The notes beneath the pieces were generated by a model that made no database searches, was not told the DNA's origin, and worked only from the letters and a program-made list of their open reading frames with translations. DNA of 64,000 nt from Apostichopus japonicus (Eukaryota > Echinodermata > Holothuroidea > Aspidochirotida > Stichopodidae): assembly GCF_037975245.1 (NCBI RefSeq), contig NC_092568.1, forward strand, positions 5,434,001 through 5,498,000, read 5' to 3'. The first letter of the stretch is position 1. Every line of letters begins with the position of its first letter. Both the position numbers and the translations under genes were made by a program. Positions 2,020 to 45,500 of the stretch are shown one piece after another.

Positions 2020-3220
2020 TGTCTTATAAAGAGTATGCATTGACGACAATTGTTTCTCACTGTTATGGATTTAATTCTACATTATATAGGCTATTCTGCC
2101 TTGTTTTGTTATCTAATAACTTAAACTCATACTTTGAAGCGCTCGTTTGTTGTTTATGTCCTCTAGTACTAGGCTAGTAGTAGGATTTTTGCCGACTTTT
2201 AACCCATTCAGATTCAGTACAAGAAAGGATTATAAAGATGCCTATGTAGACTAAAGTACAGAAGGTTGGTAAATTATTATGAGAATTCAAATTATTCTCA
2301 ATGAATGTGCATGTCACATTTATGTCTGCATGTTTCAATTTGGATGGTCCAAATATAATGCAGTTACTGCAAGGGATGTAACAATTGTAATGCCATCAAA
2401 CCGTAATGTCAATATCCATTCACTAGTCTACCCACTTCACAAAAACGTTTGGATGGGATGGTGGAAGGATGGCCAGAGGCCTTTCGATTCGGTTCACTGT
2501 CCTCCATCCAGCATGAGCTCCCATTCATGTTTGTCTGGAATTTCTAAAGGATTTACGTAATTCTACATTTACACTGACATTTTAATGTTTTACTTGTATG
2601 TAATGTACTGTATTTCCTTCAGCATTAACAGAGCTCCCAACTGACCCGCAATTCGCCGGTTAGACCCGCATTCTAACACCATAACCTGCTGACCCACGCA
2701 AGCGTCAGCAAAACCCGCATTGTAATTGTCAAGTATACATAAAAAAATTGGCATCAAATTTTGACTTAGCAACCATCATTTCTTTAGCATTTAGCATAAT
2801 ACAGTATAAAACCTCCTTTAAAGCATCATTTGAACCTCAAATTAGCCTATATTTCTTTTCATTGGGGCGAGCAGCAAACATAATCATAATCTGCTTTTGA
2901 AAACAACACTAAAGCAGTTTGTCAGCAAATATCGCAATAAGTATACAGGTTCTCACTAGGCCTAGTTCTCACAATGCTACACTAGCACTGTGCTGTGGTA
3001 AAAATTGGCAAGCATCTGCTCCAGTTAGATTCATGCAATCGCTTGTCACTAATACGCTTGTTCTGACGTGCAATGTTCAGTCCTAACAATGTTTAATCAC
3101 CCTAGGTAGGGGACTTTTATATTTATTGTTTGCATACATGTACAAGTTAATTCTTTAAGTGCAGTCTGTTTCGTTTACTTATGGAGCTAAGATATATATG
3201 TTTCTTTTGGCAGCTTCAAA

Positions 3221-7839: not shown

Positions 7840-7849
7840 ATTACGTAAG
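7840..7849. promoter_or_regulatory. D-box core TTACGTAA (upstream site 1)
   Basis: ATTACGTAAG contains the palindromic core bound by PAR bZIP and NFIL3 factors. It lies about 2.9 kb upstream of the bZIP start codon in the CpG-richer block. One outer base departs from RTTACGTAAY. Confidence 0.4.
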
Positions 7850-8015: not shown

Positions 8016-8025
8016 GTTACGTAAG
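8016..8025. promoter_or_regulatory. D-box core TTACGTAA (upstream site 2)
   Basis: GTTACGTAAG lies 176 bp downstream of site 1, with a near-match TTACGTAG about 35 bp further on. The spacing and position suggest a small regulatory cluster upstream of the bZIP gene. Confidence 0.4.
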
Positions 8026-10701: not shown

Positions 10702-10833
10702 ATGCCTGATCATCATGTCAGTATCGGAGGAGATCGCCGACGTCATATCAGCAAAAGAAGAAGAAGTCTCCACTGGGGATCGAACAGAAGTCGTTATGGA
10801 TTTGTCGATGAAGAAAAAGAGAGTAAGGGATGA
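10702..10833 (+). other. Upstream open reading frame overlapping the bZIP start
   Basis: An ATG 13 bases before the main start opens a different frame of 43 codons ([10 protein letters not shown] to EKESKG) ending at TGA 10831-10833, inside the main coding region. Its start context is weak (T at -3, C at +4), while the main ATG has A at -3. Leaky scanning is therefore expected, with some dampening of translation. Confidence 0.4.
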
Positions 10834-12256
10834 TGATTCAGATGAGCAAAGAGAAGTGAAAGGAGATGCAGTGAAGGTAGAGATGATACAGTCGGCGTTT
10901 GAAGTCAAAATCAGCGAACTAATCATAAACGCCGATAAGAAAAACACGGAAGTTCACGAAGGCGGGGACGCCACCATTGAACGGAAAGTGCCAACGACGC
11001 AACGCCCTAAACGTGCCAAAAAGAGAAAACAATCGCCTGAAAAGATAATCCAAGGTTGTAAAGTTAGTGATTACGTAACCGAGCCAGCTCTGCAACGCGA
11101 CTTAGCGACGACCACAGAAGAGATAGTCATTGAAACTACAGACGCCGATAATGCCAGTCTTATTATTACAAAAGCCTCGAACGGAGGAGGAGACATTGTT
11201 CATGTTGACACTGAGTTAGAAGTGGAAACCAGCAAACCTATCGCGGTGCTAGCAGAGGAAGACCAAGAAGAAGGCGATTCGTTGCCGTTTAAAGTTCCTA
11301 CAGTGACAGTCGCTACAACTGAAATATCGAAACCCACCGGAGACGCCGCAGAACTTCCATTAGCGCAATTACAGTCTTCTTTATTCAGCACGACTATTTT
11401 GGGATCGAATTCCAAACCGATGAGGCCTTTTAAACTGTACACGCAAAATCGTGATTTATTAGCAGGGATTGGTCTTAACCAGACTAATATGAACACATTG
11501 GCAGCTGCTTTGTCAGGAAGGCCTCTCGTTTCTTCGACGATTGTCGGTTCTACCGCTTCTTTACCGATAACCGCCTTTGCACCACTCAACGTAAAGAACC
11601 CTCTTATACCGACTACCATACCGACCGGTGTTCCTGAGACTACCATTTCACAGGTCGGATCCACCGCGGGAAGTAACGGCAAACTGCTTTCCGCCGCTAC
11701 TTCCGTCATTACTTCTACGACGACATCGTCTGCTATGCGACTCATGACTTTAGCGACGGCCGCCGATAAAATTTTAAAGGGGAAGAAAGAGGAACAGGAC
11801 GTCGACGACGACGCCTCTGAGAAAGATACGAACGTACCTTTAATTATTGCCTCGTCAGATGGCAGTACCCCAGCCGTAGGTCACGTCAATGAGGACGGAA
11901 CCATTGAACTCACCCTCGACGCCACTTCTCCCGAAAGACTTGCCCTCATCCAACAACAAATCGCTATGACGCCCGAAACAGACTTGGACGAACCAAAGTC
12001 AAAGAAATCCAAGAAAAGACAACAGCTCCCGGAATCTCTGAAGACACCCAACTACTGGGAAAGAAGGAGAAAAAATAACGAGGCCGCCAAGAGATCGCGA
12101 GATGCTAGGCGTGCCAAGGAGGACCAAATCGCTATTCGGGCTGCCATTTTAGAACACGAGAACACGAGGCTGAAAATCGAACTGAAAGCTCTGAAGGAGG
12201 AAACAGCCAAACTCAGAGCTGAGATTTATGAACGGAAAAAATCGGATCCTAAGTAG
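10715..12256 (+). CDS. bZIP transcription factor, PAR/NFIL3 superfamily
   Basis: A 513-residue, uninterrupted coding region. Its C-terminus is a clear b[23 protein letters not shown] at 447-466 holds the NNxxAAxxSR DNA-contact signature (N455, A458, S461, R462), followed by leucines every seven residues (L479, L486, L493, L500). The linker before it ([19 protein letters not shown]) and the RDARRxKExQIAIRAAxLExEN run resemble HLF, TEF and DBP more than C/EBP. The single coding exon recalls vertebrate NFIL3. Such factors bind RTTAYGTAAY D-boxes as dimers and serve in circadian and developmental control. The long N-terminus is acidic and Ser/Thr-rich, without a known fold. DLSMKKK near residues 29-35 is close to a CtBP-binding PxDLSxK motif but lacks the proline. 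A D-box core lies inside the coding sequence at 11071. Family assignment is firm; exact orthology (PAR, NFIL3 or giant-like) is open. Confidence 0.9.
11070..11079. promoter_or_regulatory. D-box within the bZIP coding region
   Basis: ATTACGTAAC is an exact RTTACGTAAY match lying within codons of the bZIP gene. It may be a chance match forced by coding, or part of the local D-box group. Confidence 0.25.
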
Positions 12257-14945: not shown

Positions 14946-15828
14946 TTCTTTCATTTCAATTACAAATATGTTCCCATATTATTGGTATTTATTTATTTTA
15001 TATATTTTTGATTATTTAACATTAAAGGGTAAACTCGGTTAGCGTAAAGCTAATCTCCCCTGAAATATAAAAGAACGGAAGTGGATTAAAACTAGTTAAA
15101 ACCGTGTAGGAAGTTTTCTGGAAGATAAATACGTAGTGTAAACACACGGATAGCAATTGTCATGACATGAGCTAGCTAGTAGCTACAATGTACAAGAGTC
15201 ATTAATTAATTATAACCATGTATAGTAGTAATAAACAACACACTAGCTGGTTGATTGTAATGTCAAATTAACACATGATTGGTTATTGTAAGCAAACTTC
15301 AAAAAGGCCGATACTGACGGGACTACTGTCATTTATCTAGAATTTTAAGGAATAGGCGATGTCTATCACGAGTTCGGTCCCCCTCACCCCCCCCCCCCCC
15401 TCCCTCGATGCATGCCCTTCGCGCCTCTTTCGTCTGTGCTAATACAATGAGAGGGTTGCGATCATTTCGAATTCTAAATGTATCAAGAAAAAGTGAATCA
15501 AATATGCTATACATTTTGTTTACTTTATACCAGGTCCAAAAGAAGTATCACGCCACCCGCAGGAACTTTCGTTTCAAAGTATTCCATGGAAATACTTGTC
15601 TTGCTTTTGTTTTGGTTTACTATTTGGGTTTGTTTTGCATTATTTGTTTGTTTCTGAATCTCCACACAGTCACCTTTGTTCTCCTTTTCTTTGTGCATGT
15701 AATGTGACTAATTTAACATGAAACACTGGTGCTTGAATTCCTTCACTGGAAATTCATTGGAAGAGAGAATAGAATCTCATTGGAATGCTTATTGTTTGAC
15801 CGTGGAGGGCTAATGAAAAACCACATAT
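14946..15828. other. Intergenic spacer
   Basis: No gene or repeat is recognised apart from a C-tract near 15387-15400. Open frames at about 15329-15707 run on both strands and lack support. Confidence 0.35.
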
Positions 15829-15872
15829 GTTACGTAATCACTTCGGTATACCTTTACGTCCTATTACGCAAT
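15829..15872. promoter_or_regulatory. D-box pair (GTTACGTAAT and ATTACGCAAT)
   Basis: GTTACGTAAT at 15829-15838 is an exact PAR/NFIL3 consensus. ATTACGCAAT at 15863-15872 is a C/EBP or HLF-type variant 34 bp away, start to start. This is the left end of the cluster that reaches 21165. Confidence 0.5.
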
Positions 15873-16030
15873 TACCCCTTCCTCATCCTCCGCACACAAT
15901 AAGATAATCTCTCCACTAAACAGGAAACAAGAAAACGCGCCATTTCAACTATGGCGAATCGGTGGTAAATAATCAACATTCGCAGATGAGACTTACAAAC
16001 TCCTTCGATTTTCATGGGTGATTACGCTTG

Positions 16031-16040
16031 ATTACGTAAC
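16031..16040. promoter_or_regulatory. D-box ATTACGTAAC
   Basis: An exact RTTACGTAAY match, about 200 bp from the previous site, with a related half site (attacgctt) just before it. Confidence 0.45.
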
Positions 16041-17690
16041 ATATCTAACTTATAGCCTTCGATTGCGTCACTTTTGAATTAGACTACACTGTCTCTAACT
16101 ATACACTATTTTTACTTGTGTGTGTTTGTGTGTGTTAATTTTTCTTTATAACCATTCCGAGGACAATGTCACAATTAAAAGAATTTGTACATTTACATTT
16201 ATTTCACCAATCAGGCAGGCAGTTGCTGAGGTCTGAAAGTAAATTAAAAAACTACAAGTTTCATTTTACATTAGCTTATATAAATATCTTCCAAAGTTTG
16301 CAATGGAACCTTCCTTCAATATTAATCGTGATCTTGGATTAAAAATATGTTCGTTTTACCAACATATACTATATTTTATTATACAATTAGATATATTTCC
16401 GAGACTCCATGGATGCCAAAACATTTATAATAGAACATTGTATTATTGTATAACAGTGCCATCATCACATATGCACTCGATGGATACTACTGTAAGCTGA
16501 AAGAACAAATCAAATTGTTAAAGCATTGTAAGCATTAGCTATAATAATTAGGCTGCTTATAGCTATTCCTAGCTATTACAGCGATTATTTTTCTAACAAA
16601 CTCAAGACCTAAATTAAATAAAAATTATTTTCTTTTTGGACTGCTGTGCTAGCCGAATCCGCACCGGCGATTTTGAGAGCTCCGAGATTTACCATTTGTC
16701 CGTTCTCCTGCTCGGTCGGACTGAATTTCTTGAACTTATACCTACGTATACTGACCATGATGAAATATGCAAACATATCCTGCAATAGTTAAGAACTTAA
16801 GATACCGGGTCATGAGTGTCATACTGCGGCATTTGTCCTGAAAGTAATTAATTTTAAACAAATAAAATAAAAATAGAACATCGGATATTACATTTTCACT
16901 GAGAGACCGAAAGTAATTAGTATTCATATGATTATATTTTTATTTTTGTTGTTGGTAAATGAAGAGTAAAACCGGTTTAGGCTATTCGATCTGTACAGCT
17001 CATTTGTACTTTTTTTAAAGGACCTCCCCCGGGGGACCCCCCCATTCCCCTCCAAAACCTGTTTGTTTTGCTTTACCTTTTTTTCTTTTCAAGATGCTAC
17101 TAAACACTCTGTGTGGAAGAAGGAGGATGGGGTGTAGCGGTTACTACGGAGTGTTTCCTTGATTTCGATATACAGTCCGCATACACTGTAGATATCAGTA
17201 AAGTGGTTCAACTATGTTGAATTTGTTTGGCTAATTCCGAATCTTTCAAGACATCTTTACGGTCACGAGCACGTGCCTTTACCAAGGGAGTCGTTCCCTC
17301 CCTCTGTAAGAACCCGTAACTGTGGCAGACAGTGGTGGAAGCTAGGTCGGACCCCGGGGACAGCTGCAATAAATCACCTGGCCCACTGTTTGGAAGTTTT
17401 CAATTATTTCTTAAGAATATATATTAAGAAATTTGAGGATACATTATTATTTACCTCATTTCAGGGCCCCTTATTGACTCGATACCCGCCGGATTGAATG
17501 CCCTGACCCCGCTCCCCTCCCACCTCCACCCACCCGTGCCCTCCTCTGGCCTGGAAGATGATGGTAAGGGACGGGACAGAAAGGGATGTAAGTAGTTAAT
17601 ATACTTTCAAGTTAGGCCCTACTCAACTTTGTAGAGTCTTGCAATGTATTTAGAATGATTTGAACAGTATATAGTTCTACCGGTAAGAGA

Positions 17691-17825
17691 GTTACGTAAT
17701 CCTTTCACAATTGTTTCGTCTTATCTGATCAAGGAGGGAGACGGTATGAACTCTTTCATCTTCCGCTGGTTGAATGGGCTCTGTGACGACGCACAGCGCC
17801 ACACATCTTCATATAGTTACGTAAT
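17691..17825. promoter_or_regulatory. Pair of identical D-boxes GTTACGTAAT
   Basis: Two exact 10-bp matches, at 17691-17700 and 17816-17825, 125 bp apart and with unrelated flanks. This is the closest perfect pair in the cluster and a good enhancer candidate. Confidence 0.5.
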
Positions 17826-18425
17826 TTACTGGAAGCTGAATACATTAGTATATTACAGTTCATTAAAATGCGCGTACTATTTGGTACAGTTAAGAGATGC
17901 TTGACGATTAATGGTGGCTCGCTAATTAATAGCTACCCCTCCCCCCGCCCCCCCCCCCCACACACACACCTCCGAGACCACCATGGGATCTCGAGACCGC
18001 GGAAATGGGGATGGGAAGAGAGAGAGAGGGCAGTGGGAGTGAGAGGATTAAATGTTACATATGTAGGCCTAGGCCTACTTGATTTCGCTATGTTTTATAT
18101 TGGCCATACTGTTACTGTTCGTATTGTTTAAGTTAGAAGGAAGACGCTGAGCAAACATACTTTAATCTGCGAGTTACAAAATGATTGAATTTGAAGAATG
18201 GGTGCGGGGACAAGCGACACTCTTAACAATTTTAATCGAATTAAATACGGACACGCAGACGAAAGAATAGCCCACTCTCAAATCGATAGAGATTCTTATC
18301 AGTTCAGTTAAACGAAGTCAGATTTGCATAAAAATTGATATGTGAATTACATATTTGACACACGTGACATGAACAGGCTCATTGGCTGATAATAGTTTAT
18401 ACTTGCAATGAAACGTTGTTGTAGG

Positions 18426-18528
18426 CAGGGCCGTAGCCTGCGGGGAGGGGGGGGGGTGGGGATACGAGGGTGGCGGGGGCAGCTGCCCCGTGAGATTTTC
18501 ATTTCCTAAATGAAAGGCAACGGCCCTG
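18426..18528. mobile_element. 103-bp terminal-inverted-repeat element (MITE-like)
   Basis: The left end CAGGGCCGTAGCC matches the complement of the right end (ggcaacggccctg) at 12 of 13 positions. A G-tract follows the left end. I cannot find a clean target duplication (tgtagg against tgtggg at best). The CAGGG start suggests a hAT relative. Confidence 0.5.
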
Positions 18529-18533
18529 TGTGG

Positions 18534-18543
18534 GTTACATAAT
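18534..18543. promoter_or_regulatory. D-box variant GTTACATAAT
   Basis: Read on the other strand this is ATTATGTAAC, an exact RTTATGTAAY match. It is less informative than the CG-containing form because it is AT-rich. Confidence 0.3.
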
Positions 18544-19172
18544 CATTTAGTACCATTGCTCTTGTAGTGTATATACTGGATACAGTATTAGCTCCAAATC
18601 TGCTAGTAAGTCTCACTATATGGTCACTCATGTTCCCGAACGTCAAGATAAAGATAAAGACATTGTTTATTGCATGCGGTATATACTTGACCAAACCATT
18701 CAGTCTGAAGTTGAATTCGTTACCAAAGTGTTTATTATCTATTTTTAGACTTATCTCAGTTAACAAATATCCCACCCCCCCCCCCCCAAGAAAAATATAT
18801 ATTTAATCCATTGCTTTTTACTGAAACGAATCCGAATCAGTTCAATGGCTATAGATTTAAATTAGTGTGACTTTAATCCGCCAACCTCTGTTCACAACCA
18901 AACCGTTACTGTTATAACAGAACGCAATTTTCCCTTCATAGATGTTGCAACAGATAAGATTGTGTTCAGCTTCAACGTTTAGTGGTTTGAAATTTAGAAT
19001 CATTGAATTACATTTCCACATCTTCAGTCCATCCCGTGACCTATACGGCGCGACCCCAGAGCGAACCAAGGATATATGCTCACCTCTTATGTCTAAGGGA
19101 TCGGCGTCCTCGTTCCGAGGTTAATTGGCCAGATATTTAAGGAGTAATCATGTATTGCTGCGGGTGGTTTGT

Positions 19173-19182
19173 ATTACGTAAT
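19173..19182. promoter_or_regulatory. D-box ATTACGTAAT
   Basis: An exact, fully palindromic 10-bp match within the cluster. Confidence 0.45.
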
Positions 19183-19856
19183 CGTTCATCGTTAATCAAG
19201 TAAGATGGAATTTTACTTCGAATAGAGTTTCTTTCTCAATAGTGAAAAAAGAGGAAGCTCTTGTTAACATGAATAATAAAGGGAGAATATAAAAACAATG
19301 CTAACATGATGTTGATTTCTGCTATGTCAAGGTCCAACTGTCACTGTCAGAAATTCATTAGTCAATGGTAAGATGTGGGCAGAGGAAACCCCCCCCCCTC
19401 TCCTCCCCTCCCTCCCTCCCCTCCCATCTCTAACTGGAATATGTAGGTTTCTATATCCAAATGTGTAGAATTCTGTTTTAGGCAATGTGTGAGTGTAGCA
19501 ATAAACATATTTTCTGTATTTTAGATGACAGACACAGCTATAGTGTAGAGGAAAAAATCCCATGGCCAGGCTGATAAATCACTTTGCACTTGTGCGAGGT
19601 CCATAAACCAGTATAGTCATGTTGCACAAAAGACACGCTTTATCACTACCAGACACCACCGCCCCCCCCCCACTTCTCTTCCTACCCGACTTCCCATGTA
19701 CATTCTTCTAACAAATCACATTATTAAATTATTAATCAAACATGAATATAGAACTGCTATATAGATATGCATGAATACCAGTGACAATGCCTCGGAAGTC
19801 TGTCCATGGGTTGGGCTTCACAAACTTAAAAAGAAAAGGAAAAAGGCCTTCATCTA

Positions 19857-19866
19857 GTTATGTAAT
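19857..19866. promoter_or_regulatory. D-box variant GTTATGTAAT
   Basis: An exact RTTATGTAAY match, the T-containing form of the PAR/NFIL3 site. Confidence 0.3.
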
Positions 19867-20323
19867 ATTTCAGTAGTTATCAACCCGGAGCAGGAAGGGG
19901 GACGGAGGGGGTGAGGAAGGTATTATACCAACTTTAAAAGTTTGCCTTGTTTTCAGTGGTCAAGGAAAGATAAGTTACTTCGATATTCACAGATCTTATA
20001 AATCCATAACTTTTTGTTTTTCGTTAGTTACTGTTCATTTCTCTTTCCATCACTAATATAGAAAAATAATTTATGGTTTTAACAAGGCGTATACATATCT
20101 TGATTTTAATAGGTGCCCGTGATTGATGCGCGGGTATATAAGTAGATTTATCAGTAATCTTACTGGAAGATATACCACCTTCTCGACAGTTAAGGGCTTT
20201 TATACAACCTTCACTTTTGAATGCACTCCTGACCCCGTGACCCTGGACTTTTGACCACTCTCAAGATCTCACAACAATAGCGAGCTGATTATTTAGCGGC
20301 GAGCTATTCGGTTGCATGTGTTT

Positions 20324-20333
20324 GTTACGTAAT
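20324..20333. promoter_or_regulatory. D-box GTTACGTAAT
   Basis: An exact match, the same 10-mer as at 15829, 17691 and 17816, with different flanks. Confidence 0.45.
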
Positions 20334-20921
20334 AACGCGGGCGTACAGTGAACCCAATCAATTGAGTGGATTACTGATAAACCTATAGTAGAGGGACTTA
20401 TACTTGTTGTTGTATAGCTAATACTATGGATAGTAAACTCCCTGTTTAATTTTGACAACAAATCCGCTAATGTATAGTTTTTCTTTATCTTTACTAATAG
20501 CATGTTAGACATATAGTTATTCTGTTCAACGATAAAAGTTAACTATTCTATTTCAGATGAAATTTATGACGGTAAATTATTATCCATGCGCAGAGGATTG
20601 TAAAACAAAAGAACGAAAATAACCAATTTATACCTGAAACAACAAAGAGAACATGATTACATCATAACGTCTTGGTGGTCAACATAAAGCCCCTGAAGAC
20701 AAACAACTACCTACGTCATTTTAGTATTCACGACTGACGTTTGCCTTTACTTTTTCATTTGAAAATGAAATCAATATCTCGTAAACAAAAAGCACACACA
20801 AAAAAATACGCTGATTTATGTGAGGAAAAAGATAAAGTTGGGATAGATTAGCGTATAGAAACTATAAGTTGTTAAAGCCATTCCTGTGGCTGAAGTTGAT
20901 CACATATCTTTTCTCCTAACC

Positions 20922-21430
20922 CATCTGGCAACACGGTAATTTAGCTGAAATGTTTTGGGGTTTTATTTTCATATTGAAATAATTTATTCACACAGAAATT
21001 TCCCCATCATTATAGCATCTGGCACACGGTAACTTAGCTGAAATGTGTTTGTTTGTTGTTTTATTTTCATATTGAAATCATTTATCCTACAGAGGGTTTC
21101 TTAACAAATTTCCCGCATCATCATAGTGTAGCATGATTTCACAATATAAACATATATTACGTAATTACTTAAGGCGCTCTTCTTGCTACAATGGCATCTG
21201 GCAACACGGTAATTTAGCTGCAATCTGTTTGATTTTTATATTCATTTTGAAATACTTTCTCCACACAGAGGAAAATTATCTTTTGCTTTGTTTTGTTTTT
21301 TGTTTCGTTTTGCACCCCCCCCCCCCTCCCACGACATCATCACAACATCTGGCAACAGGGCCATTTACCTGAAATATTAAATATTATTGTTTTTTATTTT
21401 CATATTAAAATCGTTTCTCTACAAAGAGGA
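20922..21430. repeat. Diverged tandem repeat, about four units
   Basis: The phrase catctggcaacacggtaat, followed by tagctgaaatg and then ttattttcatattgaaat, begins at 20922, 21016, 21195 and 21346. Unit spacing varies (94-179 bp). The third unit is separated from the second by an insert that contains a D-box. It is an old local duplication, non-coding. Confidence 0.65.
21156..21165. promoter_or_regulatory. D-box ATTACGTAAT (right end of the cluster)
   Basis: The last exact TTACGTAA site in the window. I find none in the remaining 43 kb. It sits within the diverged tandem repeat, but in sequence not shared by the other units. Confidence 0.45.
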
Positions 21431-24377: not shown

Positions 24378-25994
24378 ATGAAGCGAGAAGATACAATGTT
24401 GACCAACGACATCTTGGCGGAGGAGGAAGAGGAGGAGGAGAAGAAGAAGAAAGAAGAAGAAGACAAATTGCTTTCTTGGTTTTCTAACATAAATGAACAA
24501 GATCAGATCGTTTGTGGTGAATCTTTCAAGAGGGATCAATATGTGAAACGAAAGGAGAGAAGCATCCTTCCCGGGTCGTGTGACAGCCATACGACACCGA
24601 GGGTCGCTGATACCTTAGCAAGACAGTTTGAAACAGATGATGGCGATGATAGTATGAATATGTCTTGTACCGTTAGTGTGGATACAACCAACGGAATAAT
24701 GTCCCGCACGGATGATCCTACAGAGTTATATAAGGACACGAAATGGAGTTCTTTTTCACCGTCATCCGAAAACGGTCGAGATGTCCGTAATTTGGTTCAA
24801 TTCGTTAATTCGGCGTCAAACGATATTAAGCAAGCGATCGATAAATCGTCAGTTCGGAGTTCATCTTTGATAGCTGTTTGCTCTGCTGATTCGAGTTCAC
24901 TATTCAATCAGACCACAGATTGTGTACGGGAGGAAAGAAAGAAAACTTACTTTAATAATCGCGATTCTTTGGCAACGAATCCTTTAAAAGTTCTTAAAGT
25001 TGAACCGTTGAATGTCGTTAAGGTCAAACCCATGGGAAATCGTCACGGTCGATCCGTGTCGTCTGAGCAAAGCGATTATCAAAAAGAAAAATCAACACAA
25101 GGAAAAGGTTACGAAATAACTCCACCTTGCAAAAGAAGAAAAATATCCGGTAACTTCGAAGTGGATAAAACTTTTCATGTTTCGAAGGACGACATGGTTT
25201 CTAGGGCAACATGTAGCCCTAAAGCAGAAAGAGCTCCCTGCACTAAAGATAAGGATGCTAATTTCTCGACGACAAACGACAAAACAGATTCAGCGACAAA
25301 CCCACTACCGCTCAGGAAACGGCGTCTTCCTGCATCTTTTTGGCAAGAGCCGGGGAAAAGCGAAATCAAGCCACCGATAAAGACGGTTGAAAGTTCGCCT
25401 CGTCAAACGGCGTTCCTGCCAATAACTCCACGACAATCATCGTCTTTTGGAAGGTATGTGAAGGACTTTCTTGGTTCTAATTTATCAGCTTCAGAGAAAC
25501 TGGAACTACTTCGACTAAATTCACTCGAGAGAGACAGTTATAATCATCTTTGCTCCACTCGAGAGATCAGCGGCAGACGCTGTCCTAGTTATCCTTGCGT
25601 CCTGATGCACTGCAAAAACCAACACGAGGAGATACATTTCAGGGATTTCCCGCCATTTTATCCCAGAAATGATTACCCTTTCCTGCATCCAACACAAGGT
25701 GCGTCTCTACCTTTTCCTGCACGTAATGCCTTCTCAAGTAATCATGAACGCCATGCGAATGTCTTAGGAATGCCATATCCGCCGAGTTTTCCACCATATT
25801 ATCCCGATTTGTTACGTCATGATGAGGTCATCGATTCGAATTACGGATCTCGATTTATCTTTCCAATGGAAACCAATGTATCCCCATTGTTTCCGTTATC
25901 TTCACATTTTAATCCAAGTGTCGTGAGACCTGTTCCAAAGAAGCATTTATCGAATATTTCCAGATCGTTTCATCCATCTTTTGACGTGAGATAG
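24378..25994 (+). CDS. FAM181 family protein, probable TEAD-binding transcriptional cofactor
   Basis: A 538-residue intronless coding region. Two blocks identify the family. Residues 142-157 (FVNSASNDIKQAIDKS) match the conserved N-terminal FVNxASxDIKxAxDKS block of vertebrate FAM181A/B. Residues 313-325 (RKRRLPASFWQEP) match the family's RKRxLPASFWxEP block, which resembles the YAP omega-loop (LRKLPDSFF). Vertebrate FAM181 proteins are reported to bind TEAD factors through it. The C-terminus (VVRPVPKKHLSNI) recalls the family's VVLKPIP ending. Before the first block lie 137 extra residues, including a Glu/Lys run at about 15-28. The rest is Ser- and basic-rich, then Pro/Tyr/Phe-rich near the C-terminus, largely disordered in appearance. 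The first ATG has a weak context; the ATG at residue 7 is a possible alternative. No membrane segment is visible; a nuclear location is inferred (KRRK near 253). Confidence 0.85.
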   Translation: MKREDTMLTNDILAEEEEEEEKKKKEEEDKLLSWFSNINEQDQIVCGESFKRDQYVKRKERSILPGSCDSHTTPRVADTLARQFETDDGDDSMNMSCTVSVDTTNGIMSRTDDPTELYKDTKWSSFSPSSENGRDVRNLVQFVNSASNDIKQAIDKSSVRSSSLIAVCSADSSSLFNQTTDCVREERKKTYFNNRDSLATNPLKVLKVEPLNVVKVKPMGNRHGRSVSSEQSDYQKEKSTQGKGYEITPPCKRRKISGNFEVDKTFHVSKDDMVSRATCSPKAERAPCTKDKDANFSTTNDKTDSATNPLPLRKRRLPASFWQEPGKSEIKPPIKTVESSPRQTAFLPITPRQSSSFGRYVKDFLGSNLSASEKLELLRLNSLERDSYNHLCSTREISGRRCPSYPCVLMHCKNQHEEIHFRDFPPFYPRNDYPFLHPTQGASLPFPARNAFSSNHERHANVLGMPYPPSFPPYYPDLLRHDEVIDSNYGSRFIFPMETNVSPLFPLSSHFNPSVVRPVPKKHLSNISRSFHPSFDVR

Positions 25995-35620: not shown

Positions 35621-36285
35621 TCATAATAATAATAATTTATTCTTATATAGCGCTTTACATCAAAAGAATGATCTCAAAGCAGCTTCACAGAAACGCATAA
35701 AATAATACAACTTAAAAAATATTAAAGCTTAAAAATATTACAGTCTAAAAATATTGCATCTTAAGAATTACAGAAATAAATAACTTAACAATAATTTTGA
35801 AAACACAAGAAAATTCAGAAATTAAAGACAAAAGCAATAAAATATGACAGCATACAATAAAACTAAAATACTAAACCATTACAGCCGAAAATTAGCAACA
35901 ATAAGACTATCAAAACATAAATAGAAAATAAATTTCAATATAAAACAATCAAAAGATGGCAAGATGGTAACACAAACAATATGACTGGAGATTTAAAAAG
36001 AATAATACTTTCGAAAAAGGAGAGTTTTAAGGAGTGTCTTAAAAACATTTAATGATGGAGCTGCCCTGATGTCATTGGGGAGTGCATTCCATACATCAGG
36101 TGCAAAAAAAGGCAAAGGATCGTGCGCCAAAGCTTTTTTGGGCGAATGTGCCCGGCTCTAGTCGTATCTCCATAGAATGTCTGCTCCTCTGTCGTGTGCG
36201 ATTGGCAATCTGCAGGGGTTCTGGAAGAGCCTGGCGACTGATCAGAGAGCCAAGATAGTGAGGGGCAGTGCCATTTATAATATAA
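35621..36285. repeat. Probable interspersed repeat starting with (AAT)n and tatatagcgctttacat
   Basis: The opening resembles a class of repeats common in marine invertebrate genomes, in which a trinucleotide run adjoins a tatatagcgcttta phrase. The block continues through a diverged region to about 36285 (gggagtgcattccatacatc near 36079). A 155-codon minus-strand frame here has no protein-like features. The assignment is from memory of the type, not from a match. Confidence 0.4.
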
Positions 36286-36448
36286 TATTTTATTAATATT
36301 ATTATTAATTATTAATATAGAGACTTGAATTCGATCCTTGCGGATTATAATACAATATGTAGCCGTTATATATTGGTCGTATACATTGCAGGACACTACG
36401 AAAACCGAGTCACTAAATATGCAGCACGCCATCACCATAGTGAACAAA

Positions 36449-36573
36449 ATGGCGACGTCCATGAACCTCGTAAGATTCGATTGTACGGGTGTCTTTCGAG
36501 CTTGTTTTAGCTGCATTTTACTCGCTGCGGCTTACGTTGGGAGTCTTTACCTATGGCGAAGTGGGCTACCAAG
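36449..36573 (+). CDS. RCE1: RCE1 first coding exon, version 1a
   Basis: Encodes [16 protein letters not shown], then a hydrophobic helix, ending [13 protein letters not shown] plus two bases. The end is very close to human RCE1 (YVGSLYVWKSELPR), so this is probably the ancestral version. The donor gtatta follows 36573, and exon 2 completes Arg. Confidence 0.9.
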
Positions 36574-39500
36574 GTATTATTAAAATATAGCGTCAAATTT
36601 TCTTTAAACTTGGAAAACCTTGGACTGTATATTTTACCACCAGCGCTAGTAACTTGTTACTTCTAAGTTATAGTGTTACTGTTACTAGGCCTAAACTGTT
36701 GTTATTTTGTTAACGATAATGTTATGAATATGATAGCCTAGAGTAGACCTTGCATATGCCCCATGAAGTAAGGTAACGCTTGACATGCCAAACGAGTAAC
36801 GTTATTGAAGTCAGTGCGTTGATTTTGAATCAGGTTTCGTTAGCTGCTACACAGTCAAACACATTCTTTTATCCACAATTGCTTATCCTACAGAATCCAG
36901 GGTGTTCACAATCCCATCTTACAGTAAGGCTTACTACTACTACTACTACTAGTACTAGTAGTAGGATGGTGACTTCGAAGTTCGCCCACTTAAGACTTAA
37001 AACACCCCAAAACTAAATCTTCTGGTATAAATCATTTGAAAATATACTTCATATGGTGGGAGAATTTTGTTATAGTACGATACACGGCCAAACTTTCTTT
37101 CCTGCAAACTGTTTTCACGTTGTTTTCCAAGAAGATTCTTCGTGATTGTGGAACTGGTATTTCTTGCTAGAGTATTGCGAATTTCGGCCATGCAACCTAC
37201 AGTGTGGCGCTGGTAAAAATTGGTGGCGCTGTTGCTCTTTCAGTAATTATAACAGACTTCATAGATCTTCGTCATTTTATTGACAAATATGTAAGTAATT
37301 TCTTGCACACGGGTCATTTTGGAGAGAAAATAACTGTAGCTTCGTACTTTTTGGTGAAATTTGGCTCTTCCTGTAGGTTTTCATGGTGAAAATCGTGTAT
37401 TTCTTAGGGTGCCCGAACTTCGCAGTATGGCGAACCTCGCAATACTGACTATACTACTGGTACTACGCTAGCTCACATGTAGCCTCAATTTTACCTTGGT
37501 CAATTGCACATTGTCCTCTCATCTGTTGTATCTTTTAACAGGAAAGGTGCCAAAATTTAGCAAACTGGCTACCATAGTATTGTAATTAATGTTTTAAGTT
37601 CTCTCTGCTGAAATAGTAATTATTGTTATGTTTTCTAATATTGTGAGCCTTCCTCTTCCACACTGGAATATATGCATGAATGAACTGTGCTTACAACCAA
37701 AATGTCCAAATCAGTATTAAAACACTGATGCTAATATCCTTGATGAAAAGGTGAATTTAGGTATAGCCTCTGCCATGGATAAATTAATATTTTACACTCT
37801 TTCTGGCCTATATCTTGTAAGTTCCGTCCTGATGCAGTCACATGTGAAAGAAGCCTAACAGCTTATTACTTAATATTTAACCTTCATGTCAGGTGGCTAT
37901 CCAGTTTACATATTTAGCTTAGTTTGCATACTTTGCAATTTGGAAGACCATTCCATATGGAAAAACTGTGGATTTCTCGTTGGATGATACAACCCACTCG
38001 ACTTTGGCAGGCCGGAGATCGAAACCACAACCTCCCATATGTAAGGTTTCATGATTGAGCTCTAATGCCACGGCCTTTGTCCACTCCGGCATAGCATATG
38101 TGCATCGTCCAACCCTCAATTCAACCATTCAATTCCATATCAGACAAATCTTTCACCAAGAATAGCTTTTTTAATATCGAAACCAGAGCTTCATCCTGAT
38201 TTTTACATTTCATTTTCAAAAAAACAAGTTATTAAGGGAATTTAAAAATTTAAAAATTTTTGTGTGTGAATTTCACTCTCTGATATATATGGCAACTTCG
38301 TCTCGTCAAGTATTTTTTTTGTGCCTATTTCCTGTTGCAAACCTTTACCTTTTCAGTAGATTTTCTGACTTATCTATAATTAGCCACAGCCCCCTGGAAT
38401 GCTAGCCTGACAGCTATACAGCAATGAGAGCACAGGTTCATGGAAAGGATGCATGCAAGTTATACAATAATATTACAGTACCATAGAAATGCTGTAACTT
38501 TCCTTTAAAACATGTTTGGTTTGCAGAGTATACTGTAAGCTATCTCTCATTGCTGAATTATTTGAATTTCATGCAGATGTACTCCAACATTTAATTTAAA
38601 GAAATCTTCAGTCATGTAAAGCAGCTTTTAAAAAGAAGTTCAGTCAAAAGTAATACCTCTGAGATATACACTCTTGCAGGTTTCAAACTTTTACATAGAT
38701 GACTAAAGTTCAAACATGAAGGTTAAGCATCACTTGTGTTGGTTTTTAAATAGCTGTTGTAGGATACTGGTAGTCATTATAGATGTGTGCCTTGTAGTAT
38801 ACATCAGCTAATTGATGAAACAAATAGTTGTTCACAGTCTTTCAGCACGCTGCACACAACACGACCGATCGGGACCTGACGCAACTCGACTGCCGTGGTG
38901 TCGTGGAAAATCATTTTTAGTCGGGCAGTGTGGGTTCCAGATTACGACTGATCACAGTATTGCCAGTTCTAAGTTGTAAAAGCTTCAGTCAGGAAACTGA
39001 AAATGTTCTCACGACTGACAGTCATCCAGTGTGCATTGGGTCACGATTAAAGCTGCCCATCCCTAACAAATATAACCAATCACAGGAAAGAAATTTTGCA
39101 TTTGACCTGAACGACCACCGATCCTTATAAATAGAAAGCAGTCATGTGGGCTTGTCAGTTGTTTGGTGTGTAGGGGTCAGTCATTGGAAAATTAGTCTTC
39201 ACGACTTAAGGTTTTTCCACGAAACGACAGTCGAGTTGCATCACTTCATGGACAGTCAAGGAACTTGACTATTCACATAACTGTGTATATACTGTAACAT
39301 TAGGCTTATATATGCAGTGCAATGCCTTCAGTAGTGTCTGGTTTTATATGTTGAAGGAGTACGGGAGCAGATTTTTGGGGTTCTTGTATCACTATTAAAG
39401 ATGCTAATGGCATTTGCAGTGCAACATAATAACAAGCAGAAAATATGTTATGTTATGTATATATGCATACATGTCACAACAAAGTGGCTGAAATGTTGAC

Positions 39501-42500
39501 TAGGTTTGTTTACTTAATAGCAAACAAACATAAACAATCAGCTTAGGCCTACCACATGTTTGAGTAGCAGATAGGTGCAGACTAACTTACTTTGCATACA
39601 TACAAACATCAAAGTTAAAGAGCTCCTATTATGATGGACTCATAGCTTCTGAAATGTGGGTGAATTCTATATAAAGTGCAATGTTAATATGAAACTTACC
39701 TAGCCACTTTCAGAACTTTAATGTGTGTTGTGATTCGAACATCAAAGTGCAAAAGCAGTTGAATATTAATAAATGTTAATATCAGTAATTTTAGATATGC
39801 AACTTAGCAATTCAGGTATTCATTTCTCTTTCGACCACTCAAACCGGTGACTTGAGAAAGTTTACCACACTTTATGAGAGGACAACCCAAGGAGATGGAA
39901 TATATTAAATAAGTATTGTAATGAAAGAAGTATATGCTCTGTCATCAGCAAGGAAGAACTTACTCCAACCCTGGCATTAAAGAAAAATGTTTTCCATTTT
40001 AATTGTATCAGTATTTCATGTTTGGAATTTCCTGCAAAGTCTGCGCGACATGATATGTTAAAATAACAGTAATTTGCACAATACTTGCCACAGGACTGAA
40101 GTATGATATATTTATTATACTACCATGTACAGGTACAGTAAGCCAGACTGTAGTGTATCTTTAATTGGGATCTGTTATGTCTGAAACCTACATGTTGTGA
40201 CTGACACATGGATTTGCTGATTCAATTGAGCAGAAAGGTGTAATATTTGTGGCTAATTAAGAAATATATGCTTTGTAACATTCCAATTTTTTAAGCTGGA
40301 TTTTACATCCTGTTGTGGCATTGACAAAGCTTTGTAGTACTTTGACCTGGTTGTATGACTTGAGGAAGTCTTAAAACATTTGTAATTATTTGAATACCCT
40401 TCAGGTTTTGGTTTCGATGATAATCGTAACGTATGCATTCATGATGGCGTATAATGTGTGTGTGAGTGCGTTTGTGACGCCCAGCTTGTAAACATGATAT
40501 CTCAAGAAGAGAAGGTCAGACCAATTTCATATTTAGTGTGTAGAAGAACCACACTATGTACAAGAAGCATATTGTTTTTGGTAGAGGTCAAAGGTCATCA
40601 GAGGTCAAATCTTGAATCCCTTGTAAACATGTACACCCTGACTATACATTACGTCAGATTCATGAAGAAAACTGCTCATGTTACATCATCGAAACCACAA
40701 TGCATTTTTGCATTCTGGTTAAAACTATGAGATCTGTGAACCATTTAGCTGTGCCAGATTACTGAGTCAAAAACTGTTTAGTTTTAAAAGGCAAGCAATT
40801 TTTCCTCTCACAAACTTAACATATTGTAAATAGTTTATGCCTCATAACATTAATAAATTTGTTTATTTGATCTTTCCTGGTATGATTTTGGTAAATTAAA
40901 TTAACAGATTATGTTTTCTTGACCTCATCTTTCCTTTAATGAATTATGATCACAGTTTATTGTATAACCAGACTGTGATTAACTCCGAGTTGGTTTGAGT
41001 GCTACATTGCGACATAAATACATATATGCCAATTTAATCAGTGTAAAATGTTAACAAATTCAGGTTTTGCCATTGAAAGGAAAATAACTGTGATTTTTTC
41101 CCAGAAAGTTTGTCAGTTGCCCTAGCCTCTGGATGCATTTATGTATGGTGCATGTTAATATTATTACCAAAATAAAAATTTTTCCTCAAACACCAAGACT
41201 GCCCTTGAAAAAAAATATATTGTCGTAAACCACTGACAAGCATATCATGTAGAGGAATAGTCAAACTTTTGAATGGCTCTTGTCTTCATGTCAACCACAT
41301 GTCTCTATTTCATTTTTACATGACAAATATAAGGTACTTCCAAAATCAAACACGTAGTCTTTATAAAAATTGTCCAATATAATGAAATAAAAGGTTTGAA
41401 AATATATTAATTAATCATTAAAATATTGTGTTGTATTTATATCTTCTCTCTCTTTCTCCCTCTCTCTCTGTCATATTTTCTGACATTCAGTTAATATAAT
41501 ATATTAATATAATAATAATCATAACCTATTAAATAGGCCTGCATATATATGTAGGCTTATTACATATTGATGAAACAAGTTGAATTCTGGGGTTTTCCCC
41601 TTGTGGATATTTGTATCAACTACTCCAAACATTTTGCTATTAAAGTAAGGTTGAACATCTCAAAATTCCCAGCTTTTTCAAATCAGGGCTTTGTTATGGC
41701 CAGATATTGTCATCGAGTCACTCAAATTAAAGCTGAAATTTGTCTTTCACTTGATATTTGTATATTTTGGTTTCATATTTCTCTTTCAATATTAACTTTT
41801 GATTGCAACATTTGCAACCATATTATGAATGCACTGAGGTCAAAATGCATTATAAGTACAAGGTACAAATCAGAACAAACCAAACACTATCAATTATTTA
41901 GTAAGATGTTCCTTTTAATGAGTCCAAAAGGATAGATTATGTTGATAAATATTTTGGTATAACTATTAAAACGAACAATAAAATTACTGTTTAACAAAGA
42001 TTATAACATACAGAGATACTGTACCGCAACATGTTTAGTGGTTGCTGTACTCAAATTGAAATCAATAAAGTTCTGTTAAATGTTAATTTTTTTTATTAGT
42101 ATGGATCTCAATTTCTGCCCGAAACTAAACATGTTTTCTTGCGCATAACAGCCTCATAGCCAGTGTGAATAATTAGCAAGTAACAATAAAATATGTTTTG
42201 GCTTTATCAGCAAAGTTGTTTACTAAAGATTCTATAGATCAGTACACCAAGTTGTTTGTTTATCTTCAGTAGACAGCATTCCTCTTCCTCTCTGTGTTGT
42301 AATTAATCGATAGAATTGTTTTTCTTGTACAGTGCTACACGAACACCTTTCATGCCACCAACTAAGGACTACACTGCTTTCATATTTAGTACTTGGTTGG
42401 TGGAACACAGCGTTTTGTATTTAATCCTGAGCTCACTCAGTCGAAGCCTGGTGTAGCAAAAAGGGGTCTTGATCTTTCAAATTTTGCAACACTTGCAGAA

Positions 42501-45500
42501 GGGATGAAATGAAAATTCTGGGACCACTTTCTATTGTAAGTGACCTTTTTGAACGTTTTTCACAGTCGTCCACATACCTTGTAAACATGATAAATGCTTA
42601 AGTATTAAAGCTTAGATGAATGTCATACTTGCAAAGTGGATCCAAATAGTGACTGAATTATCAATGAATTAACTTGATGCTAGATATATTACGGTCCACC
42701 CTTTAGCGCCAGACCCTTGTTGATCACTGAAAGTCAAGAATGGTCAAACACTTGAAATATTGGTTACTACTGTACTGTACTCAAAATGGAATATTAATAT
42801 AAAATGTAGCAAGCAGTCATCATGTCCAGTGATTTCCTGTTTAATTTATAGCCAATAAATCTTATCTGAAATTATGGTTTCTATTTACATCTATAAATGG
42901 ATTCATTACAAGATCATGTTACATTTATATATTGTGTAGACAGCTAGGATCTCGTTCCATAAGTTTCCTGGTTTCCACTTCTCTATAGATAGTAACCATA
43001 GCAGAAATGAAAAATAATGCCTTCTCCACTTCAAAAGGATAAGTATTTATAAAGCTGACATATATCAATTTCACATTTAAAACGATCATGGCAAGTTTAA
43101 CGGGAAATATACTGACAATATATTAATAAGGCCTAAACACGCATGTATGAGTGTGTGTTTGTGAATCCTTTCAGGAGTTTGTTTAATGTGTTAATCCTGA
43201 GCTGTTTAATTGGTCTGTTTAAATGGCAGCCTCTGTGTGCTGTGTAAAGTTCTCATGTCAAGGAGTATTCCAAGCCTGCTTTTTCTGTTCACTGCTAACT
43301 GCTGTGTTCGTGGGAAGCCTTTACATATGGACTCCCTTACAAAGGTACATTGCCACTTTTTTATAGCTTATCTAAGCATAGCCTTTGTTAAGGCGTATTG
43401 GCCAAGTTTTCTTAGCCTAGTGGGCTGGGTCGATCCATACAATTCATCAAACTATGAGCGATTCGTTCCTGTGGTTGCGCTGGCCTCTACGCCTTTGGAC
43501 AGGCGCTGTAATTTATTCACAAATGAAGAAACAAACCCAGCATGGTGAATGACGTAACACATATTGAAAACCGATGATAGTGTTCACACAATCACTTCTT
43601 CGTAAATGGTACTGTCAATTTTTAGGGTTATCTGCTTTAAAACTACAAGTTTACTATTTGAACATTCACATGTTGTGACAATTAGTACTTAATACAATTA
43701 TGTTGTTACAAAGTTTAAAATTGTGCTTATCAAACATTAAGGTGTCAGTTACTGTGTTTAGATCAAACTAGTTCACATAGATATCTTGTGCTCACCTACG
43801 AATGGTAAGTTCCATTGCAGAAACGTACACAAAGTCGTAGTTCAACAAGTTTAATTCATTTGTGCTGTATGTTCTGTACGAATAATGTACACAATGTTCA
43901 TGTATAATTATGCATTATGTATACCAGGGCAGAGATACGGCTCTGCAAAAGGGATCTGTATGTAATGTTCAACTCCCTAACAGTACACTAAGAGGACTAG
44001 GTGAGAAGCCTGATTAAAAACTTTTCGTCTTGAAGATGATGGTTGTAGCTGAGACGACTATTCCAACCGAACAGAAGTCTCAGTAATATCGATGTGGCTG
44101 GGAATTGAATAAAGTTTGTTTCAAACAAATAGTCCATCTGAATATTCATGTTGTATCTATTTTAGGAGAGCTCTGATTGGTTTTCAAAATTACTACCAAA
44201 TTCGGTAGTAGAAATATATAGTGTGTGACTAATGAGATCTTCTGTCCAGAGTCTGTGAAGCGTATGTAGAAAGTAGCGGAAAATATAACAGCCGTAACAT
44301 TTTCCTATTTTAATGTGAGGAGACTCATTCGCGTGGCTGAACAGATTCAGTCGAGTTTAATCTGAGCAGAGGGTAACATTACATCATGACAGCAGCCCTA
44401 CTGAGTGTGTGGACCTCCTGCCCCCTCCCTCCCCCTCCCCCTCCCCTCCTTCCCCCTCCCATTACCTGTCTCCTCTCAACTGTTGCAATCTAGACGAACA
44501 AGTTGGTAACATTTTTAGTGATGTTCATCCTTTTGGTGAATGTTTGTTATAGTAGGGAGAGATCCTTTAATTAAGTTTTTACTTGTTGGAAAGAAATTTT
44601 TCCTTTGTAAGTTCATGTTTTTTAGGTGTATGTTTGTAGGTCAGAGGTCAGAAATGTGCATTACATGTAGCTTATTTTGTGTCCTTTTTTATTTTTATTA
44701 TTATTTTATATATATTAATTACTTAATTAATTAAGTTATTTATTTATGTTCTATATGCACAGCAGATTCCAGCTATTCAGTAGGTTTATTTTTTTTACTT
44801 CCATTTATTTATTTATTTATTTTTTTACTCATTATTATATTTAATTTATTATATTTTGGTGGAAGGGGACTCATTAAACAATTTAAAATTTGTTGGATAA
44901 TATTTTATTAGGGGAAGAGGATTCTAACCAAATAAAAAACTTCAATGCCTTCTTCTCTAATTCCTAGTGGCTAGTGCTTAGTTCATCTTTTAGGGGTAGG
45001 GGAGAGCATTTTAGTCTAGTGATTAGGGCATTATGGACTTGTGATCCAAGTATTACAGGTCTGAGTCCTGGCCAGATCTTTACTTTGTGTTCTGTAAGGT
45101 TACATGCATAGTAGATATGTTACTTTGTGTTCTATAAGGTTACTTGTACAGTAGATGTATTAAACTGAGTGTGCCAGATTATGGCAGCATCCTATGGACT
45201 GTCTTCATGGGGATGCTTACATGTGGCAGACTGTAGTGCCCGGGGAGGGGGGGGGGAGAAGGGGAACTGTTTAAATTGTGCACCATTTTGTATCACTGTG
45301 TGACAATTCACCAGTGACCTAGGGTCAATCATGTGAGAAGGTCCTGGCCTTATCTATCGGATTCTAAACTATAACAAGGTACAGCTGTGTAGTGCCAAGC
45401 CAATTTCCAGTACAGAGCATAAACTGTGCTAAAGTTGTTTTGTGTGTGGAATTACAGTAGTATAATTAGCTCAGTACTTTGGCAATTTGTGTTAGTAATA

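Follow-up and report, generated by a model that had tools for sequence, protein, structure and literature searches.

Perfect palindromic D-boxes are unusually dense around a PAR/NFIL3-type bZIP gene in the sea cucumber Apostichopus japonicus

Why should a perfect D-box recur eleven times at one end of a 64-kb stretch of genome, on both sides of a gene whose product appears suited to bind it? The stretch in question (the window; C8:5434001-5498000, contig NC_092568.1, 64,000 nucleotides) comes from Apostichopus japonicus and carries a gene for a bZIP protein of PAR/NFIL3 type, around which the palindrome TTACGTAA is gathered. Here we report that this group of sites is real and non-random, an unusually dense set of perfect D-boxes round the bZIP gene. 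It holds more perfect TTACGTAA than chance provides, and the sites are not copies of one repeat, as is expected of a homotypic cluster. The most likely mechanism, which we put forward with moderate confidence from the DNA and its predicted protein, is auto- or cross-regulation by PAR/NFIL3 factors, with the locus serving them as a homotypic D-box regulatory region.

All eleven TTACGTAA sites lie exactly where the original prediction had placed them (2553, 7841, 8017, 11071, 15830, 16032, 17692, 17817, 19174, 20325 and 21157), every one within the first 21.2 kb and seven inside 5.3 kb. Three precede the start codon of the bZIP gene, at 2553..2560, 7841..7848 and 8017..8024 (8.2, 2.9 and 2.7 kb 5' of it, respectively), one is inside the coding region, and seven lie 3.6-8.9 kb past the stop codon. 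The seven sites of this cluster (15829-21165) also fit the full consensus RTTACGTAAY, as had been claimed; in order, they are GTTACGTAAT at 15829..15838, ATTACGTAAC at 16031..16040, GTTACGTAAT again at 17691..17700 and 17816..17825, ATTACGTAAT at 19173..19182, GTTACGTAAT at 20324..20333 and ATTACGTAAT at 21156..21165. The site within the bZIP coding sequence (11070..11079) brings the RTTACGTAAY total in the window to eight; none of the eleven sites is assigned to a strand. No TTACGTAA is present in the 20 kb to the left of the window or in its remaining 42.8 kb on the right, the counts per segment being 0 in the 20-kb left flank, 11 in the first 24 kb and 0 from 24 to 64 kb.

The bZIP coding sequence (10715..12256, + strand) is open in a single exon and encodes 513 amino acids, matched by Pfam bZIP_2 (E 1e-13) and by the NFIL3 chain 8k86 (E 1.4e-9). 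In the structure of NFIL3 on TTACGTAA, seven residues, R80, N83, N84, A86, A87, S90 and R91, contact the bases (PMC10941009). Aligned to the solved NFIL3, the window protein is identical at all seven, in agreement with the matching DNA-binding domain proposed at the outset, and by eye the same seven are found in five paralogs. Its basic region thus places the predicted protein in the PAR/NFIL3 superfamily. Within that superfamily, its bZIP domain shares 58-59% identity with two PAR-like paralogs and 45% with the NFIL3-like one (C2:1505191), and the NFIL3-type basic region and zipper (SREKRRLND...) was not found in it. The window protein and these paralogs are probably of PAR type, a label that draws in part on a weak match to a VBP zipper. 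As for affinity, of the sites in Table 1 of PMC10941009 it is TTACGTAA that NFIL3 binds most tightly, with a dissociation constant of 0.042 uM as compared with 0.18 uM when one half is TTGC and 0.52 uM for TTATGTAA; the same source reports that NFIL3 binds about 14-fold more weakly when the CpG is methylated.

To what extent could the sites have gathered by chance? The genome (671.58 Mb in 35 contigs) contains 14,591 TTACGTAA, or one per 46 kb, and 6,618 RTTACGTAAY, or one per 101 kb. Shuffled controls, which like the genome-wide count had been proposed as a check, gave a mean of 0.74 and a largest value of 4 TTACGTAA over 100 dinucleotide shuffles of the window, as against the 11 observed. 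Of the 14,290 distinct 8-mers in the first 24 kb, we scored those with at least five occurrences and at least three different bases, thereby leaving out TA repeats; TTACGTAA ranked first, occurring 11 times where an order-2 Markov model predicts 0.40 (p 8e-13). Within the 5.6-kb cluster it outranked every other palindromic 8-mer (7 seen as against 0.12 expected, p 6e-11) and came third among all 8-mers, behind poly-C and the overlapping ATTACGTA. Using a Poisson model over the whole genome at the single, double and triple background rate, a cluster of seven TTACGTAA in 5.3 kb is expected 4.5e-5, 0.005 and 0.08 times, respectively, and eleven in 18.6 kb are expected 3.3e-7 times at the genome rate and 5e-4 times at double that rate. 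Given one TTACGTAA per 46 kb, such a gathering is therefore hardly to be expected by chance, even if the local rate were twice as high.

The figure at the triple rate counts in favour of a reading in which the sites have no regulatory role and reflect an uneven background together with repeats that carry TTACGTAA. Some unevenness is indicated by a search for dense TTACGTAA places, in which non-repeat pairs, among the matches listed, look somewhat above the Poisson expectation by eye. The matches listed reach as far as C7, and the control of that search, the backward pattern, was a different and commoner word that is not matched in composition. Against a patchy background stands the first 2.92 Mb of C1, where none of the 61 TTACGTAA falls in a 5.3-kb stretch with more than 2 sites; the densest place there has 4 sites in 7.7 kb (C1:255051-262709), two of them in identical 68-base stretches that represent a local duplication. 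A general effect of CpG content or composition was also considered and rejected, because the local Markov expectation is 0.12 and because CpG-rich DNA, namely homeobox loci (1 in 40 kb) and the window from 24 to 40 kb (0 in 16 kb), is not enriched. In the D-box cluster itself CpG is kept, with an observed/expected ratio of 0.78, as against 0.32 at 40-64 kb, where it has been lost; together with the weaker binding of NFIL3 to methylated CpG, this counts in favour of a D-box region. At about 36000-44000 the ratio changes, with values of 0.6-0.9 to the left and 0.2-0.4 to the right, a drop that resembles the edge between an unmethylated and a methylated domain.

The repeats require closer attention. 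It had been claimed that the cluster sites are not repeat copies, and for six of the seven this holds, since they have no strong match in a search of the genome with 15700-21300, a search that skips very common words. It fails for the site at 21157, which sits in a 52-bp dispersed repeat (21146-21197) with 94% identity to two places on C3 and 91% identity over 45 bp to one on C13. Besides this repeat, the search returned the query itself, a low-complexity G-rich stretch and weak short matches. The surroundings of the site at 15830 have 19 of 21 bases in common with the repeat at 21157 (E 0.047), a likeness that could be due to chance. A repeat origin of the whole cluster was rejected, as the 52-bp repeat is the only one found that overlaps a D-box; for the sites at 2553, 7841, 8017 and 11071, repeat origin was assessed by comparison with the extracted loci only.

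Additionally, the last D-box is surrounded by four degenerate copies of a unit of about 75-85 bp that starts CATCTGGCAACACGGTAATTTAGCTG (20922-21427), and the genome search with 15700-21300 listed no copy of this unit beyond the locus.

Elsewhere in the genome, repeats do multiply D-boxes, and three such carriers, the 52-bp repeat, a MITE-like (miniature inverted-repeat transposable element-like) element and 27-bp arrays on C7, speak for an origin of sites without a role. Places with equal or higher TTACGTAA density, among the matches listed, are tandem arrays, duplications or repeated elements. The existence of such D-box-bearing repeats means that density alone does not make a place exceptional; what sets the window apart is that the dense places among those matches are mostly repeats and the window cluster is mostly not. 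Weighing the repeats and the background together, we regard the absence of any regulatory role as quite improbable.

In the three copies of the MITE-like element that were read, all on C1 (L027, L028 and L029), a pair of inverted D-boxes is spaced about 235 bp; exact ends of the element occur 435 times genome-wide, once beside a PAR/NFIL3-like paralog (L008:3280), and it may spread D-boxes through the genome. The arrays on C7, at about 2.594, 2.636 and 4.365 Mb, are built of 27-bp units, and most of the units shown contain a perfect TTACGTAA.

Are the sites tied to this gene, or to its family? The genome contains PAR/NFIL3-like paralogs at C8:10651474, C14:25824502, C4:24156793, C2:1505191 and C2:1516521, and we counted TTACGTAA in the bZIP match of each together with 10 kb to its left and right. 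As the two C2 genes fall in a common stretch of 30 kb, this gave four stretches totalling 90 kb. These neighbourhoods contain 2, 2, 5 and 2 TTACGTAA, a sum of 11, where local order-2 composition predicts 1.59 and the genome rate 1.96; RTTACGTAAY was seen 5 times with 0.89 expected. Control loci were taken with 5 kb on each side. They comprised all 12 non-PAR/NFIL3 members of 18 bZIP matches, with two further bZIP_2 matches, at C3:29359724 and C3:2486407, left out and with one frame in the bZIP_1 list containing an internal stop (C13:25397846), as well as 4 of 60 homeobox matches, the best-scoring one on each of C4, C14, C5 and C12. Around the 12 other bZIP genes (120 kb), one of them C/EBP-like, there was no TTACGTAA versus 1.31 expected; their CpG observed/expected ratio is lower (0.52 vs 0.70), a difference for which the Markov expectation allows. 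The four homeobox loci (40 kb, CpG ratio 0.71-0.92) had 1 TTACGTAA with 0.83 expected. After the paralog site at L008:3280, a copy of the MITE-like element, had been dropped, the comparison of ten paralog sites with one control site gave p 0.0013 by Markov exposure and p 0.0003 by length. Enrichment at the paralog loci and its absence from the 12 other bZIP loci favour auto- or cross-regulation within the PAR/NFIL3 family.

A second word, the cAMP response element (CRE) TGACGTCA, is also frequent at the paralog loci (L003-L011; 14 seen, 0.95 expected). It was rejected as a family-specific signal, being raised likewise at the other bZIP loci (5 vs 0.9 expected) and the homeobox loci (4 vs 0.54) and absent from the window.

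Taken together, these results suggest how the locus may work. Dimers of PAR/NFIL3-type bZIP proteins would bind the TTACGTAA sites round the gene at 10715 and regulate that gene, and the binders would include its own product and probably those of the paralogs. Several high-affinity sites could yield a steep or lasting response, the net sign of which may be negative, in line with the repression reported for NFIL3, or positive, in line with activation by DBP/TEF/HLF. That the D-boxes bracket the bZIP gene points to this gene as the main target. Directly upstream of the coding sequence, inspection by eye shows an acceptor-like ttttag, which suggests that the gene may have a further, non-coding exon at its 5' end.

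Three sets of observations weigh against this mechanism, and they concern the number of sites, their sequence and their position. First, one cluster site (21157) is repeat-derived and a second (15830) perhaps so. Without these two, the remaining five sites in 4.3 kb are expected 0.04 times genome-wide, and 1.3 times at double rate, at which they are not exceptional. Once they are dropped, the claim rests on the whole set of sites round the bZIP gene, which is then nine in 17.8 kb and is expected 1.3e-4 times at the genome rate.

Second, the sequence of the sites is selective. Among TTACGTAA and its one-mismatch neighbours, strong enrichment is confined to the perfect palindrome, which fits a factor that prefers TTACGTAA. 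The three close variants that the original prediction had added to the cluster (TTACGCAA, TTACATAA and TTATGTAA at 15863, 18534 and 19857) are present, but variants of this kind are not significantly over-represented, and we rejected weaker D-boxes as part of the signal. Nor is TTATGCAA enriched, with 2 copies in the first 24 kb as against 1.7 expected. In mouse liver, where DBP/TEF/HLF and E4BP4 control clock genes through D-boxes, TTATGCAA is D-box#1 and TTACGTAA is D-box#18 of 18 (PMC6687812); the window thus shares one of the D-boxes used there but, unlike that set, is enriched for the perfect palindrome only. As to the flanks, R..Y surrounds all seven cluster sites as compared with 45% of genome TTACGTAA sites (p 0.004), but of the four remaining sites in the window only one has it, and of the ten non-MITE sites at the paralogs four, which is no better than the genome; by half-site, the purine flank is found in 14/14 cases in the cluster, 5/8 at other window sites and 13/20 at the paralogs, and all 42 half-sites together give p 0.14 versus the genome. 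By eye, nothing clear emerged as a flank preference further out than position -1.

The lack of enrichment of the weaker PAR-type variants counts in favour of sites that serve another binder of TTACGTAA, such as C/EBP or a protein of the GMEB-type SAND class. Proteins of that SAND class prefer TTACGTAA. The genome has a C/EBP-like gene (L019, basic region RNNIAVRKSR), and C/EBP-alpha and -beta are reported to bind TTACGTAA, C/EBP-beta about 2-fold more tightly than NFIL3 (PMC10941009). However, TTGCGCAA occurs 0 times in the first 24 kb (0.3 expected), TTACGTAA is missing from the 5 kb on either side of the C/EBP-like gene, and the excess of TTACGTAA tracks the PAR/NFIL3-like genes. For these reasons we judge another binder to be very unlikely.

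Third, the D-boxes are mostly 3' of the bZIP gene and closer to its neighbour, a FAM181-like open frame (24378..25994, + strand; TEADIR3, PF15238, E 1.1e-6) that is a possible alternative target. The cluster might be a PAR/NFIL3-bound D-box enhancer or silencer that acts on the FAM181-like gene or another neighbour and not on the bZIP gene. The FAM181-like gene has the same orientation as the bZIP gene, and the cluster precedes its ATG by 3.2-8.5 kb, the last D-box being 3.2 kb from that first ATG, versus 3.6-8.9 kb 3' of the bZIP stop codon. The other four sites are 5' of the bZIP gene or within it, with none past 21.2 kb, and enrichment is also seen at the paralog loci, which were not screened for an adjacent FAM181-like gene. 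On this evidence a target other than the bZIP gene seems unlikely. The original proposal, an autoregulatory enhancer or shared control of the FAM181 gene, is partly supported, by the non-random sites, the seven of seven contact residues, the bracketing of the gene and the paralog enrichment; of the two candidate targets the bZIP gene is the more probable.

The wider suggestion, which we offer tentatively and with more doubt than confidence, is that in A. japonicus the whole PAR/NFIL3 family may be wired to itself via perfect TTACGTAA D-boxes. In such a network the gene in the window, with 11 sites, would have the most connections, the four paralog neighbourhoods would add 2, 2, 5 and 2, and D-box-bearing mobile elements would have supplied part of them (21157 and L008:3280). 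If the proposed auto- or cross-regulation at the window locus is real, feedback through D-boxes, for which PAR/NFIL3 proteins are best known in vertebrate clocks, would operate in an echinoderm as well, with an unusually legible high-affinity cluster. It would also be a compact, testable case of a transcription factor family that keeps auto- and cross-regulation, and of repeats that may add sites.

The type of circuit, a D-box factor acting on its own gene, is already known for this protein family, and the locus adds another case. The primary paper on autorepression by NFIL3/E4BP4 is reportedly that of MacGillavry 2009. According to a review, NFIL3/E4BP4 represses its own promoter (PMC4629104). 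The arrangement proposed here is alike in that a D-box-binding bZIP protein with the same recognition residues would act on its own gene. It differs in that NFIL3/E4BP4 acts at a promoter, whereas in the window many perfect palindromes are scattered through 18.6 kb, most of them on the 3' side of the gene, and in that the window protein is closer to the PAR-like paralogs than to the NFIL3-like one. Among echinoderms, VTTACGTAAY, assigned to NFIL3, is one of the motifs common to gastrula regulatory regions of four deuterostome species including a sea urchin (PMC11240583). This places an NFIL3-type motif at putative regulatory DNA of another echinoderm; unlike the present proposal, that work gives a list of shared motifs, and the part of it covered here contains no self-wiring of PAR/NFIL3 genes. 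Among the papers listed from the openly licensed literature on D-boxes and their bZIP factors in sea cucumbers and sea urchins, none deals with this locus, which is weak evidence of absence.

An Rfam scan of the window gave no match at gathering scores. Minisatellite arrays are present towards the right end of the window, where CpG is poor, at 50118-50915, 53876-54402, 59053-59446, 60269-60625 and 60982-61542, and an open reading frame at 61948 looks RCE1-like by eye.

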